Of a stretch of 64,000 bases of DNA, positions 20,428-61,196 are shown one piece after another. Position numbers and translations under genes: made by a program. The DNA comes from an uncultured Caldilineaceae bacterium (GTDB lineage: Bacteria; Chloroflexota; Anaerolineae; Caldilineales; Caldilineaceae): positions 5,187,405 to 5,251,404 of the forward strand of contig OX638330.1 in assembly GCA_951812725.1 (NCBI GenBank), given 5' to 3'. The notes beneath the pieces were generated by a model. It saw only the letters and a program-made list of their open reading frames with translations. It was not told where the DNA came from and made no database searches. Numbering within the stretch: position 1 is the first letter of the stretch; the number at the start of each line of letters is the position of its first letter.

Positions 20428-20477
20428 GCCACTGACAACTAGCCACTAGCCACTGACCACTGACCACTGACCACTGC
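20428..20477. repeat. Degenerate CCACTGA/GCCACTA tandem spacer
   Basis: Seven-base units GCCACTG, GCCACTA, GACCACT follow one another across the whole spacer between the MalF-like and MalG-like genes. Similar spacers occur at 39809, 44119, 54931 and 59441. Confidence 0.7.
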
Positions 20478-39735: not shown

Positions 39736-39836
39736 CAGCGGCCAGTTGTAAGTGGTCGGTTGCCAGTATATTCACTGGTGACCGGCCACAGGCCGCTGGC
39801 GTTTTATTAACCATTAACCACTAACCACTGGTGTTC
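39736..39836 (+). terminator. Long nested hairpin and repeat spacer before the permease genes
   Basis: CAGCGGCC (39736-39743) pairs with GGCCGCTG (39791-39798), GTGGTCGGT (39752-39760) with ACCGGCCAC (39781-39789, one G-U) and CCAGT with ACTGG inside; GTTTTATT follows, so weak intrinsic termination is possible. From 39809 the spacer is made of AACCATT/AACCACT units ending CTGGTGTTCA before the permease ATG. Confidence 0.6.
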
Positions 39837-54930: not shown

Positions 54931-54969
54931 TCTGACCACTGACCACCAACCACTAACCACTGGTGTTCC
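54931..54969. repeat. GACCACT/AACCACT spacer with start leader
   Basis: TGACCACTGACCACCAACCA and following units lead into CACTGGTGTTCC directly before the ATG at 54970. The arrangement is the same as at 39809-39837. Confidence 0.7.
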
Positions 54970-56073: not shown

Positions 56074-57453
56074 GTGACCTTGCGCTCCCTCTTCTTCTTT
56101 GACGACTGGTGTCTGGCCCGCCGCGACAACGTCGCCCGCCGTCTGGGGCAGCCCGAATGGGTGCGGGATGCCACCTACGCCGACCCAACCGAAAACCCGT
56201 TCAGCTATCCAACCGTGCTCTACGACGACCAGCGCAAGCTGTGGCGCATGTTCTACCTCGGCCGCGAGACGATGCCAGGGGCGGTCTATCGCAAGGACGA
56301 GTGGTTTCTGACCGCCGAAAGCGAGGACGGCATCCACTGGGAACGCCCGGACCTGACCGCAACCGTTCCGCTGCCGTCGCGCATGCGTCCCCACGAGATC
56401 TTCGACCGGCAGCAGATGTCCACCGGCGGCTCGATCTTCCTCGATGAAAGCGCGTCCGAACGCCGCTTTAAGTGGCCCATTCTCGCCATCGAAGAGGACG
56501 GCCAACGCGCCTCGCGCCTGGCCTGGTCCGCTGACGGCTACAACTGGCAGATCGATCACAACTCGCGCTGGCATCCCGGCACGCCCGACCCCGGCTTCTT
56601 CACCTATCGCCATGCCGAACGCAACAGCCACATCACCCTGGCCCGCCCCACCCACGGCGACCGCCGCATCGCCCTCATGGAGACGCACGACTGGCGCACC
56701 TGGAGCGAACCGGAAGTCATCTTCCATCCCGACCCTCTCGATCCCCCCATGAGTGAGTCTTACGGGATCGTCGTCCTCCCCTATAAGGGAGTCTACGTGG
56801 GCATCCTCTGGATGTTCGAGACCGACCCGCATGACCTGCGGTGGCAGAAGCTGGAGGGGAAGATCTACGGCGAGCTCGTCTACAGCTACGACGGGATGCG
56901 CTTCCAACGCTCCCTGCGCCAACCATTTGTCGGCCTCAACGAGCCGGGCGAATATGGCGGCGGCGGCATCTATCCCTGTTCGATGGTGGTCGACCACGAA
57001 GGGCAGATCCGCATCTATTCCGGCGGCACCAAAGGGGAGCATTTCCAGGCGCGCACGCTCAGTCGTGACGAGCCCGACTACGCCGCCATCCTCATGCACC
57101 GTCTGCGGCAGGACGGCTTCGTCTATCTCGAGTCACAGGCCGGCGCCGGTTATCTGACGACGCGCTGGGTGCGAATCCACGACGAGCGCCTGCTGCTCAA
57201 CGTGCAGGCCCCATACGGCGAGGTGCGCGTCCAGCTATCGGACCTCGAGGGCACACCGTTGCCCGGCTACACCTTCGATGAGTGCCAGCCGTTCCGCGGC
57301 GACTCGACCGCCTGGCAGCCCCAATGGCAAGATCAGGCCGGCCTGGCCGAACACGTCGGCACACCGCTCCGCATCGACGTGCGCCTTTACCATGCCCGCC
57401 TCTACGCCATCCACGGCGACATCGAACTCGTCTACGCCAGCGACCTCAGATGA
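56074..57453 (+). CDS. Beta-propeller glycosidase-like protein with SxDGxxW repeats
   Basis: 459 residues from a GTG with AAGGA nine bases upstream. Blade-like repeats ESEDGIHWERPDL, WSADGYNWQID and YSYDGMRFQ, the open YxDxxRKLWRMFY segment near 50-60, and a C-terminal beta-sandwich (LLLNVQAPYGEVRVQLSDLE). Related to the 31836 and 57705 proteins. No signal peptide, so it acts in the cytosol, probably on material brought in by the importer upstream. Catalytic acids cannot be named. Confidence 0.68.
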   Translation: MTLRSLFFFDDWCLARRDNVARRLGQPEWVRDATYADPTENPFSYPTVLYDDQRKLWRMFYLGRETMPGAVYRKDEWFLTAESEDGIHWERPDLTATVPLPSRMRPHEIFDRQQMSTGGSIFLDESASERRFKWPILAIEEDGQRASRLAWSADGYNWQIDHNSRWHPGTPDPGFFTYRHAERNSHITLARPTHGDRRIALMETHDWRTWSEPEVIFHPDPLDPPMSESYGIVVLPYKGVYVGILWMFETDPHDLRWQKLEGKIYGELVYSYDGMRFQRSLRQPFVGLNEPGEYGGGGIYPCSMVVDHEGQIRIYSGGTKGEHFQARTLSRDEPDYAAILMHRLRQDGFVYLESQAGAGYLTTRWVRIHDERLLLNVQAPYGEVRVQLSDLEGTPLPGYTFDECQPFRGDSTAWQPQWQDQAGLAEHVGTPLRIDVRLYHARLYAIHGDIELVYASDLR

Positions 57454-57550
57454 GCAGGTGTTCGCGAGGAGTCCCCCGTACTTCCGACTTGGTCGTGCCC
57501 AAAGGCCTCGGGCGCGGGGCACGCTGGGAACTCGTGTAAAGCCAACTCTG

Positions 57551-57650
57551 TCTTATTCTGGCCAATTCACGGCTTATTCTGGCTTATTCTGGCTTATTCA
57601 CGGCTCATTCCGGGCTATTCCGGCTTATTCCGATCAATTCACGACCCATT
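57551..57650. repeat. Ten-unit 10-bp tandem repeat (GGCTTATTCT-like)
   Basis: Ten consecutive 10-base units follow each other with no slippage: TCTTATTCTG, GCCAATTCAC, GGCTTATTCT twice, GGCTTATTCA, CGGCTCATTC, CGGGCTATTC, CGGCTTATTC, CGATCAATTC and ACGACCCATT. It fills the middle of the 251-base gap between two propeller genes. Confidence 0.8.
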
Positions 57651-57704
57651 CTGTAACCCGCGGCGCCAACCCAATCGCAGTCCACCCTTCTCGGAGATCA
57701 GGCA

Positions 57705-59402
57705 ATGGCAAACGAAACACTCTACAACGGCATCACCCTCCCGCAGACCTGGCCGCCGCGCAACGTGATCGAAGGCTCGCGCGAGCCGATCCCCGTGCCC
57801 TATCTCTCCCATCCCCCACAGGTAATCCCCATCGACCTGGGCCGCCAGCTCTTTGTAGACGACTTTCTGATCGCAGAGACCTCCCTGACACGGGCTTACG
57901 GCAAACCGGAAATCCACCCGCAAAGCCCGGTGCTCAGCCCCGAAACCGACGAGGAGATGGATTCCGGCTACTGCCCGATGGCAGCGCCTTTCAACGACGG
58001 CGCCTGGTACGACCCGCAGGACAACCTGTTCAAACTATGGTATATGCCCGGCTGGTTCCACAGCACCGCCCTCGCCACCAGCGCCGACGGCATCCACTGG
58101 GACCGCCCGCAACTCGACGTCACGCCCGGGACCAACCTGGTGTGGCCGAACAACGATGGCTCTGACCGCGACGGCTGTCTCGTCTGGCTCGACAGCGACA
58201 CACCCGACCCCGCGCAGCGCTATAAGATGTTCCAGTTCTACCGCCACTACAAGCCCAAGCCGGGGCAGCCCCCCATCCCACCCGGCAGCTGGCCGACTCA
58301 AATGGCCAGGGGGGAGATGGTCTCCGAAGGCTGGGCCCAGGTCTCGCCCGACGGCATCCACTGGAGCGATCCGGTCATCACCACGCAGGTCGGCGACAAT
58401 ACATCCTTTTTCTACAACCCCTTCCGCCGCAAATGGTGCATTAGCATCCGCCGCGCCGCCCACATCGATGAGTCCACCAGGCTGCGCGCCCGCTTCTACA
58501 GAGAATCGGACGACTTCCTGCAGGGCGCGCAGTGGGACATGGATACCGACGAGGTCTTCTGGCAACGCATCGACCACCACGACCAGCCCGACCCCGCCCG
58601 CCCCAACCACCGCGTCGCCCTCTATGACGTGAACGTGACCCCCTACGAGAGCCTCATGCTTGGGATGTTCGCCATCTTCCGCGGCCCCGAAAATGACATC
58701 TGCGCCGAGGAAGGCGTCCCCAAAACCATGGACCTGGAGCTGGCCTACAGCCGCGACGGCTTCCACTTCAGCCGCCCGGACCGCACCCCCTTCCTCGCCT
58801 CCAGCCGCAAAATAGGCGACTGGAACCGGGCCTACCTGCACGCCTGCGGCGGCCTCTGCATGGTCGTTCACGACCGCATCTTCATCTATTTCACCGGGTT
58901 TTCCGGCCTGTCGCCCACACTGGGGACCAACGACATCGGGGATTCCGGCCTGTCGCGGCGTGTCATGTACGCCGGCGCCAGCACCGGGCTGGCCACCCTC
59001 CGCCGTGACGGCTTCGCAAGCATGGAAGCCGGCGCCGGGGGCGGCACACTGACCACGCGCCCCGTTACCTTCAACGGCGGCCGTCTTTTCGTCAACGTCA
59101 ATGCGCCGCAGGGCGAACTGAGGGTATCCGTGTTGGACAGTAACGGGGACACTGTGGAGGGGTTGGGCGCCGATGCCTGCGCTGCGCTCAGCCTGGACAG
59201 CACCTGCGCCGAGGTGAAATGGTCGTCCGGCGCCGATCTCGCCGCGTTAGCCGGTCAACCCTGCAGACTGCAATTCCATCTGCAGTCGGGGCAGCTCTTC
59301 TCCTTCTGGGTGACCGATGACCCCAACGGCGCCAGCTACGGCCACATGGCCGCCGGCGGCCCCGGCTTCACCAACGGCCGCGACCTGCCTCAATCCCAAT
59401 AG
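57705..59402 (+). CDS. Beta-propeller glycosidase-like protein with SxDGIxW repeats
   Basis: 565 residues; GGAGA precedes the ATG by nine bases. Repeats TSADGIHWDRPQL, VSPDGIHWSDPV and YSRDGFHFSRPD mark the propeller; RQLFVDDFLIAET near 47-59 is a start motif common to this group, and a C-terminal sandwich (GGRLFVNVNAPQGELRVSVL) ends it. Together with 31836 and 56074 it forms a three-member family in the window. Function unknown; a glycoside hydrolase acting on a sulfated or acylated glycan would fit the sulfatase and esterase genes nearby. Confidence 0.7.
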   Translation: MANETLYNGITLPQTWPPRNVIEGSREPIPVPYLSHPPQVIPIDLGRQLFVDDFLIAETSLTRAYGKPEIHPQSPVLSPETDEEMDSGYCPMAAPFNDGAWYDPQDNLFKLWYMPGWFHSTALATSADGIHWDRPQLDVTPGTNLVWPNNDGSDRDGCLVWLDSDTPDPAQRYKMFQFYRHYKPKPGQPPIPPGSWPTQMARGEMVSEGWAQVSPDGIHWSDPVITTQVGDNTSFFYNPFRRKWCISIRRAAHIDESTRLRARFYRESDDFLQGAQWDMDTDEVFWQRIDHHDQPDPARPNHRVALYDVNVTPYESLMLGMFAIFRGPENDICAEEGVPKTMDLELAYSRDGFHFSRPDRTPFLASSRKIGDWNRAYLHACGGLCMVVHDRIFIYFTGFSGLSPTLGTNDIGDSGLSRRVMYAGASTGLATLRRDGFASMEAGAGGGTLTTRPVTFNGGRLFVNVNAPQGELRVSVLDSNGDTVEGLGADACAALSLDSTCAEVKWSSGADLAALAGQPCRLQFHLQSGQLFSFWVTDDPNGASYGHMAAGGPGFTNGRDLPQSQ

Positions 59403-59440: not shown

Positions 59441-59480
59441 ACTGACCACTGACCACTAACCACTAACCACTGCCGTTTCA
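59441..59480. repeat. GACCACT/AACCACT spacer at a convergent gene end
   Basis: ACTGACCACTGACCACTAAC and further AACCACT units end in CTGCCGTTTCA, where TCA is the sulfatase stop on the minus strand. The same ACTGCCGTT precedes the stop of the dehydratase gene at 9473. Confidence 0.65.
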
Positions 59481-61196
59481 CTCCCGCAGCCGTTCAGCGG
59501 TCACGTAGTACGCGCCGGCCAGCGGATCTCCCTGCTCGTCACGCCACCAGCTCTTCACCGTGGTCGGCCCGCGCTCCACCGCCATCTCAAACGTCTGCCC
59601 CGTCGCGTCCGGCGCCACCGGCAGCGTCTGCTCGCTGCGGCCCACCTGCAGCCAGGCGGCGGAAACCGGCAGCGCCTTGCCCGCCGGCCAGCTGCCGTCC
59701 ACGCCCTGCATCACCGGCGCCGGATCCGAGATGCCCAGGCCGGACTCCTCCGGCCAGCGCCGCAGCGTAAAGCTGTAGAGACCGGCGCGCGCCGCTTCAA
59801 CGTGCCAGGTGCCGCTGTCCATCACCGGCCCGCGTATGCCGCGCTGGTTGTCCGCGTAGACCCATGCCCAGTCGCAGCTGCACAGCCGCGCCGGGTTCTC
59901 CGCATCGGAGCCGATCGTCAGGGCCTGATAGCTAGTGAGCGTACTGCCTACGTCATCCCACCAGGCCCCGTACTGCCCCCGCAGCCGCTTGATCAGCTCG
60001 GTATTGGCCGCGGCCACGTCCTGCTGCTGGCCCGGGTCCTCCCCAATGTTGTACAGCTCCCGCCCATCGACCAGCCGCCACTGCCCCCACATCACCGCCG
60101 CCCGGTCCCTGCCCGTAAAGCCGAATCCGGCGCCCTCGTTGGCGTGTCCATACTGCACCACCGAAGCCCGCTCCGCCACCGCCTTGTCCGGCCGCCGCAT
60201 GTGCGCAGCCAGCGACAGGCCGTCGCACGACCAGCCGTCCGGCGCCTGCAGGTCACACAGATCGATCAGCGTCGGCAGGATGTCGACCCCGCGCGTCACG
60301 CCGCCCACATCCCGGCCGCCTTCAAGCCCAGCCTCCGGCCAGCGAATGAAGCAGGGTACCCGGTGACCGCCTTCGTATAGCGAAGTCTTCCTGCCCCGCA
60401 TCCCCGCATTGTAGATCCCCTCTCCCATCGCCGTGCCATTGTCGGTCATGAATATCAGGATCGTGTTATCACGGATCTCGTTATCCTGCAGGAACTTCTC
60501 CAACTGCGCCATATTTTCGTCAATGTTGGCGATCATGCCGAAAAAGCTGGCCTCATCCCGCCGGATGCCGTCCACATACGGCTGCCGGTATTCATCGGGA
60601 ACCCAAAACGGGCCATGCGGTGCATTCGTCGCAATATAGGCAAAAAACGGCTCATCCCGATCATGGCAGCCCTGCATCCACCGCATCGCCTCCTCGAACC
60701 AGACGTCGGTGCAGTAGCCCCGGTACTGCTTGATCTCATCCTTATGGCGGTAGTGGTCGTCAAAATAGTCGTTCCCATAGTAGTCGGCCGCCGAGGTGAT
60801 GCCGAAGGCGGGATGATGGATCGTCTCATGGAAACCGCGGTCCTGCGGCCGGTAGGGATAGTTGTCGCCCAGATGCCATTTGCCGAAATGGCCGGTGTGG
60901 TAACCGCTGTCTGCCAGGATATCGGCCATCGTCGGCAGGTCCGCGCGCAGCAGCGAACGCCCCATACAGACGAACGTCGCCCCGTTGCGCAGCGCATCCT
61001 GGCCCGTCATCAATTCGCCGCGCGTCGGCGTACACATCGGCGCCACATGAAAATCGGTCAGCCGCACACTGTCGGCGTGAATGCGGTCCAGCGCAGGCGT
61101 TTTCAGAAGTGGATTGCCCAGGCAGGACAGATCCCCGTACCCTTGGTCGTCGGTCAGCACGAATATGATGTTGGGACGCGATTGCTTATCAGACAT
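59478..61196 (-). CDS. Arylsulfatase-like sulfatase (type I)
   Basis: 572 residues. N-terminal metal motif TDDQGYGD (15-22) and activation motif CTPTRGELMTGQ with Cys55 as future formylglycine and Arg59; MTDNGT gives further metal ligands, and GKWHLGD is the usual Lys/His motif. About 150 C-terminal residues form an extra beta-domain (GPVMDSGTWHVEAARAGLYS) seen in many arylsulfatases of glycan degraders. No signal peptide. It is not a paralogue pair with the 46099 sulfatase (different subfamily), so the two should act on different sulfate positions. Confidence 0.92.
   Translation of the reverse strand: MSDKQSRPNIIFVLTDDQGYGDLSCLGNPLLKTPALDRIHADSVRLTDFHVAPMCTPTRGELMTGQDALRNGATFVCMGRSLLRADLPTMADILADSGYHTGHFGKWHLGDNYPYRPQDRGFHETIHHPAFGITSAADYYGNDYFDDHYRHKDEIKQYRGYCTDVWFEEAMRWMQGCHDRDEPFFAYIATNAPHGPFWVPDEYRQPYVDGIRRDEASFFGMIANIDENMAQLEKFLQDNEIRDNTILIFMTDNGTAMGEGIYNAGMRGRKTSLYEGGHRVPCFIRWPEAGLEGGRDVGGVTRGVDILPTLIDLCDLQAPDGWSCDGLSLAAHMRRPDKAVAERASVVQYGHANEGAGFGFTGRDRAAVMWGQWRLVDGRELYNIGEDPGQQQDVAAANTELIKRLRGQYGAWWDDVGSTLTSYQALTIGSDAENPARLCSCDWAWVYADNQRGIRGPVMDSGTWHVEAARAGLYSFTLRRWPEESGLGISDPAPVMQGVDGSWPAGKALPVSAAWLQVGRSEQTLPVAPDATGQTFEMAVERGPTTVKSWWRDEQGDPLAGAYYVTAERLRE

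Follow-up and report, generated by a model that had tools for sequence, protein, structure and literature searches.

The locus described here raises a simple question: why do ten repeats, each about one turn of the DNA helix in length, stand in a row between two genes of a Caldilineaceae bacterium? The window (the whole stretch of 64,000 nucleotides that was analysed) belongs to a host genome of 5.95 Mb in a single contig, and the array sits in a 251-bp spacer between two co-directional open reading frames (ORFs). The array is probably a tail left behind by a bacterial gene of the Schlafen type that was lost from the locus. As far as sequence comparison goes, four points can be taken as established: a remnant of the gene in the window, relatives with an intact module, the family link, and the co-variation of repeat unit and winged helix. 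The features of the locus are the following.

56074–57453, + strand: upstream ORF, 459 aa ("propeller" is an earlier reader's label; no Pfam match at E ≤ 0.001)
57477–57539, + strand: C-terminal remnant of a Schlafen gene (SLFN_AlbA_2-GHKL-wHTH), about 20 codons and the stop TAA at 57537–57539, reading RTSDLVVPKGLGRGARWELV*
57550–57652, + strand: 10/11-bp tandem array, ten units of consensus GGCTTATTC followed by T, C or AC
57653–57704, + strand: 5' leader of the downstream gene, with a Shine-Dalgarno-like GGAG at 57693–57696
57705–59402, + strand: downstream ORF, 565 aa (also labelled "propeller" by the earlier reader; no Pfam match at E ≤ 0.001)

The repeat array and its spacing

The ten units with TATTC, AATTC or CATTC reported in an earlier note on this DNA are all present. 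The NATTC elements lie at 57554–57651 (TATTC six times, AATTC and CATTC twice each) and start at 57554, 57564, 57575, 57585, 57595, 57606, 57616, 57626, 57636 and 57647. The same note's claim of an exact 10-bp period in perfect phase is wrong, since the spacings are a mixture of tens and elevens (10, 11, 10, 10, 11, 10, 10, 10, 11; mean 10.33). The top row of Tandem Repeats Finder for the array has a period of 31, that is, 10 + 10 + 11, with a score of 105, and the 10-bp row scores 88. The array is far above chance, with ten NATTC elements in about 100 bp. When the whole window was simulated 30 times with a third-order Markov model, the maximum was 3 in 21 runs, 4 in eight and 6 in one.

The idea of helical phase survives in a better form, in which the exact 10 bp is given up. 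Fourteen arrays from 13 genomes of the genus have three or more spacings each. Together they give 97 spacings, 49 of 10 bp and 48 of 11 bp, and the mean of 10.49 bp is about one turn of B-DNA; G008 contributes two arrays, and those of G012 (10, 11) and G002 (one 9) are too short for this set. Of 84 pairs of spacings, a fraction of 0.643 alternate between 10 and 11 (p = 0.0046 relative to independent draws). Without the two or three most regular arrays, p is 0.08 and 0.16; the alternation leans on a few regular arrays and is therefore only suggestive, and strict phase-keeping by this means was set aside. Other subfamilies have a constant spacing of 10 or a constant spacing of 11.

A genome-wide repeat family was also considered and rejected, as the array occurs only once in its own genome, apart from chance matches of 14–17 bp. 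No tRNA or Rfam element lies within the window, and the spacer had no match when searched against plasmids. With its period of 10/11, the array does not follow the 7-bp period of heptamers of the TAACTGA type. Degenerate 7-bp arrays are present at 20429–20476, 39808–39829, 54932–54962 and 59441–59472 of the window and in other 3' flanks, and such arrays, many of the ACTGACC/ACTAACC type, stand behind many stop codons of the host genome; 17 of 265 control 3' flanks from this genome have a best lag of 7 or 14 at a score of at least 12. They recall the TAACTGA repeats of PMC4679880.

Matches to the downstream ORF at E ≤ 1e-20 occur in 20 of 61 genomes (paralogues counted), and the nearest named relatives at the locus are Caldilineaceae bins, in which the identity of the downstream protein reaches 98%. 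The leader is similar across most relatives, as judged by eye from the spacers. A sulfatase gene (59478–61196, PF00884) is convergent to the propeller-like pair.

A Schlafen-type gene at the locus

Just before the array, the DNA at 57485–57538 aligns with the 3' end of the Schlafen gene of G008 (L041) over 54 nt, ungapped, with six mismatches. The remnant peptide scores 90, and the best of 1000 shuffles scores 40. It occupies the same place as the ends of the intact genes in loci L036 and L044; the SLFN_AlbA_2 and GHKL/HATPase domains are absent from the window, and the C-terminal remnant alone has been kept.

A full-length, open Schlafen gene is present in four relatives (G014, G011, G007 and G008), and in each of them the array starts within about 10–35 nt of its stop. 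In G014 (L036) and G011 (L044), a 465-aa gene lies between both flanking genes with the array shortly behind it, and in G007 and G008 it comes after the first flanking gene and is followed by its own array and then by the contig end or an unrelated stretch. The intact gene at L036:3457–4851 matches PF04326 (SLFN_AlbA_2; E 1.6e-19) and PF13749 (HATPase_c_4; E 2e-20). Remnants of the kind seen in the window were also read in the spacers L035, L047 and L040, and more degraded ones in L037, L039, L042 and L054, one of which reads LPLVVSANME*TCWKRL*.

Of the 17 genomes of the genus, 13 contain the strict array pattern, and none of 24 other genomes does; read backwards, it has one match in the 41 genomes. 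All strict-pattern matches are at this locus except for a second one in G008, which is beside the upstream gene on a separate contig. This bin has two contigs, C167 (L087) and C7 (L104), each with a Schlafen C-terminus and its own array, possibly as two tandem Schlafen genes or as a strain mixture.

In a FastTree phylogeny of the downstream gene with 14 genomes, to which the states were assigned by the authors, four genomes have an intact gene, one has the C-terminus only and nine have a remnant (one of them N-terminal), and these states are mixed over several branches; some nodes are weak, and the remnant in G013 is the weakest reading. Since intact and lost states stand side by side, the gene was probably ancestral at the locus and lost several times. 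Loci without the gene keep arrays with a longest chain of 2 to 12 units, so the relic is not visibly decaying. Unit number, which the earlier note had proposed to compare among relatives, varies widely, including at gene-less loci. Its concern that homologous spacers might lack the period does not apply to most relatives, where the period is present. Its other concern, that the stretch could be part of a decayed gene, applies in part: the array lies directly behind the 3' end of a decayed gene, and it would belong with this lost Schlafen gene and not with the propeller-like gene.

Alternatively, the array could serve the downstream propeller-like gene, as its operator or as curved DNA, and be under selection for that role. 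Its retention after Schlafen loss in several lineages would fit this, as would its modest predicted curvature. In a calculation with wedge values, the predicted curvature of the window array is modestly raised, at 88.7 degrees, a value that 4.2% of 500 dinucleotide shuffles reach. Among six related arrays, L041, L089 and L167 lie above at least 97% of their shuffles, and L136, L171 and L152 are unremarkable. Curvature was not retained as the main point, and any phased repeat is expected to curve somewhat. The array is also missing before the propeller-like gene in G004 and, on the available contig, in G007, and is down to two units in G002, while similar arrays stand behind Schlafen genes elsewhere with other genes downstream. 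A role selected for the propeller-like gene is highly improbable, and the array probably belongs with the lost Schlafen gene instead.

Repeats beside Schlafen-type genes elsewhere

Homologues of the intact gene were detected at E ≤ 1e-40 in 8 of the 251 genomes searched from the window's phylum, which we take to be Chloroflexota, and at E ≤ 1e-35 in 16 of the 64 searched from the phylum of G309; G309 is a bin titled Gemmatimonadota, and its group includes two bins titled Latescibacterota. After removal of duplicates, 27 close homologues have an identity of at least 45% and a matched C-terminus; five (L086, L087, L088, L094 and L104) come from the window-orthologous locus, so the 27 are not independent. 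An array within 210 nt 3' of the stop, counted at lags of 10, 11, 21, 31 or 33, accompanies 23 of the 27 at a score of at least 11 and 22 at a score of at least 12. The units differ among these homologues and include GTGCCTATTC, GGGCCTATAGG, GTTTTATTAAC, TTGGCTCAAGT, GGGCGCGATAG and others. The four without a 3' array by score are L144 (the gene matches in pieces), L163 and L169 (a single unit) and L168 (the array is at the ORF end). Compound arrays are seen in L152, L162, L164 and L170, in which stretches such as TTTGTAAATAAAAG lie between GGCTTATTC-like blocks.

Outside the 27 are one member at a contig edge, those without a C-terminal match and six C-terminus-matched members below 45% identity. 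Among the six, L143 has an array, L101, L102 and L113 have a repeat at lag 22 (score 11–14), and L112 and L115 have none. The L101, L102 and L113 genes are a paralogue of 27–36% identity that apparently sits behind gyrA, with TTGGGATAA/TTGGGTTATTC elements spaced out after the stop; L112 and L115 are gyrase-adjacent paralogues without these elements.

Arrays of this kind are rare in control flanks. Among 265 3' flanks from the window's own genome, 31 reach a score of 12, six of them at lags of 10, 11, 21 or 31; leaving out the window array, which is one of the six, 5 of 264 flanks have these lags at a score of at least 12. Among 230 flanks in the matched loci, nine reach a score of 12 at lags of the 10/11 series, and seven of the nine are at Schlafen or window-orthologous sites. 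No 10/11-bp array was found 5' of the Schlafen gene in close members, where other lags occur (e.g., 23 in L165).

The wider family was taken from the best matches with a matched GHKL end, of which 70 were kept and 10 dropped. Repeats of 10–12 bp are found in 46 of the 60 genes with a C-terminal extension of at least 45 aa, compared to 1 of the 10 without it and 11 of 336 control ORFs. The repeat lies in the 3' flank of 31 of the 46 and in the ORF tail of 19, and some genes have it in both places; the 14 tailed members without a repeat by score include the gyrase-adjacent L112 and L115. A second set comes from the phylum of Breznakiella, in which 28 of 247 genomes match (33 matches at 30 loci; 27 kept and 3 dropped at contig edges). 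Here, repeats are found in 22 of 26 tailed members, 21 inside the ORF and 3 of 26 in the 3' flank, compared to 0 of 27 mid-ORF and 1 of 27 5'-flank controls (1 of 54 together). The sole short-tailed member, L216, also has a repeat, which brings the tail-less positives to 2 of 11 over both sets. The second set thus replicates the 10–12 bp repeats but not their 3' position.

Most of the repeats inside ORFs, also in the second set, have a length of 12 bp and could simply code for a linker. ORF repeats of 11 bp are found in L150, L151, L174 and L176 of the wider family and in L206, L216, L230 and L234 of the second set; they break the frame unit by unit and are therefore more easily explained at the level of nucleic acid. 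Long 12-bp ORF repeats, such as GTGCAAGCTGGG in L154, follow the GHKL part in the distant Schlafen-GHKL genes L154, L161, L105, L210 and L223. Members on plasmids and phages are mixed, with a 3' array in Runella, weak arrays in two Hymenobacter and several ORF repeats. L147, L199 and L204 of this group have no repeat by score, and L147 has an 11-bp repeat if the annotated ORF end is used. A scan of viral contigs with the Schlafen alignment confirmed nothing.

These counts bear on a neutral reading, in which a slippage-prone repeat arose by tandem duplication at a tolerant 3' position and then accompanied the gene through descent and transfer. The wide variation in copy number among relatives, even at gene-less loci, is what slippage would produce, and the same genome is rich in degenerate heptamer arrays after stop codons. 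Neutral slippage accounts poorly for a period of 10–12 bp in three phylum-level sets whose units are dissimilar, for the scarcity of repeats in tail-less homologues and for the low control counts given above (11/336 and 1/54). It is quite improbable.

The genes next to Schlafen loci vary. In six loci (L180, L182, L188, L191, L193 and L194), the next gene starts with MTE or MTD and then ITEA.TVQFPMV. Pfam recognizes HSDR_N in the next genes of L180 and L182 and in a different neighbor in L179, and a GmrSD gene is upstream in L185; the remaining Schlafen loci have other neighbors. PADLOC matches to pAgo models are weak. By a look at the sequence, L185 and L186 have sulfatase-like N-termini close to their Schlafen gene.

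The winged helix and comparison with known systems

A structure model built from a two-sequence alignment has a full-length mean pLDDT of 39.1, which is poor, and the C-terminus alone was therefore used. Residues 401–465 of the model form a predicted winged helix (helix-helix-helix-strand-strand; block pLDDT 71–86) with Z values of 10–12 to winged helices such as MecI and BlaI and likewise to Z-alpha and RPA32C; Pfam HTH matches of this domain are all below the cut-off.

The unit sequence tracks this winged helix and does not follow the other parts of the protein. In a comparison of 20 loci, in which the window-orthologous group is represented once, other close groups are retained and descent is not corrected for, unit similarity correlates with winged-helix identity at a Mantel r of 0.603 (p = 0.0002), compared to 0.306 for the GHKL part and 0.27 for the N-terminal part. 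The partial value is 0.556 for the winged helix given GHKL (p = 0.0002) and −0.125 for GHKL given the winged helix. The units of L086 and L089 were set by eye; with fully automatic units, the winged helix gives an r of 0.56 and the remainder of the protein one of 0.21. The varying domain includes the third helix (435–447 in L036), which we take to be the recognition helix. An Asp in this helix goes with YTAT in the unit in 8 of 10 cases compared to 1 of 10 otherwise (p = 0.005), a post hoc comparison without correction for relatedness. This tracking suggests that the winged-helix protein binds the array. Since gene and array are adjacent, the co-variation may also reflect joint inheritance of a block of winged helix and array, which could mimic a binding signal.

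Repeats that lie in or just behind an ORF and are more alike in one gene-relative orientation than reversed (0.626 vs. 0.477) would be present in the mRNA. This makes room for an RNA-level module, in which the Schlafen RNase would have its RNA ligand or antidote in the transcript repeats of the ORF tail or 3' UTR, much like a type III toxin-antitoxin system. The mostly intra-ORF position of the second-set repeats speaks for it and slightly against binding of the array as DNA, and Schlafen proteins are described as RNases (PMC12839542). Against it, no RNA fold is shared, and a conserved fold was rejected: the window array has a z of −0.26, five of six others lie between −1.7 and 0, and L104 alone reaches −3.6. 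The unit also tracks the winged helix and not the SLFN or GHKL part. The RNA arrays of type III toxin-antitoxin systems have repeats of several tens of nucleotides upstream of the toxin gene, and the repeats here are of 10–12 bp, 3' of the gene or within it. Overall, an RNA-level module is unlikely.

The best explanation, and a moderately probable one, is that the window array once stood at the 3' end of a Schlafen module, as a cis-acting array of binding sites for the winged helix, and was orphaned when the gene was lost. Such a module would consist of one gene (SLFN_AlbA_2, RNase-like according to the literature, a GHKL ATPase and a C-terminal winged helix) and the one-turn repeats behind its stop. 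The winged helix would bind one unit per protomer, and protomers would stack along one face of the DNA, whether the spacing is 10, 11 or mixed. The protein would then stay at its own locus and so hold the effector, or limit the expression of the effector or of the next gene, which is hsdR in several loci. In the window species, the protein is gone from the locus, and the array would go on evolving as a relic prone to slippage; it may still have some function as DNA upstream of the next gene.

A wider reading is more tentative, and the odds are somewhat against it. The Schlafen family as a whole may be built with cis-encoded one-turn sites at the 3' end of its own gene, either as non-coding 10/11-bp repeats or as 11/12-bp repeats hidden in the ORF, which would be read by its own winged helix. 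Array and winged helix together would be an exchangeable block that sets the specificity and keeps the RNase tethered to its locus, or silent there, until infection.

An array that travels with its gene in distant bacteria and tracks the winged helix would be a control site open to direct testing. A gene-linked array is also a way to find more Schlafen-type genes, and in the window an odd repeat becomes the recognizable scar of a lost gene.

Among the open-licence literature matches listed, no title or start of an abstract concerns arrays beside Schlafen genes. The comparisons that follow rest on parts of the papers cited. Bacterial Schlafen-type proteins are described as widespread auxiliary effectors beside defense systems, and RNase-minimal histidine kinase-wHTH proteins among them are linked to BREX and related systems (PMC12839542). 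The intact gene of the relatives has the same order of SLFN_AlbA_2, HATPase_c_4 and winged helix as these proteins, and some of its neighbors are likewise restriction genes (HSDR_N, GmrSD). Unlike these proteins, the window keeps only a C-terminal remnant, and the arrays have no counterpart in that description, whose main text contains the term "direct repeat" zero times.

RptR is also a repeat-binding regulator tied to type I restriction-modification loci, with its repeats upstream of the operons; it differs as a 79-aa helical dimer that uses three 9-bp direct repeats with TAGCTA, 5' in its own promoter (PMC12255303). The SARP/SARP-LAL regulators bind heptamers at steps of 11 (or 10) bp, that is, direct repeats one helical turn apart that are thought to be bound cooperatively on one face, as promoter-bound Streptomyces activators of another family and location (PMC5930380). 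In CarH, winged-helix domains are bound to tandem 11-bp direct repeats along one face of the DNA, but the sites are in promoters, with three to five repeats, some imperfect, of the form TnnACA (PMC9304148). By inspection, the GGCTTATTC units of the window, at a spacing of 10/11, lack the TnnACA of the operator form nnnnTnnACAn. The arrays described here belong to an unrelated protein, have another motif, reach up to 16 units in the longest chain and lie 3' of the gene or inside its ORF.
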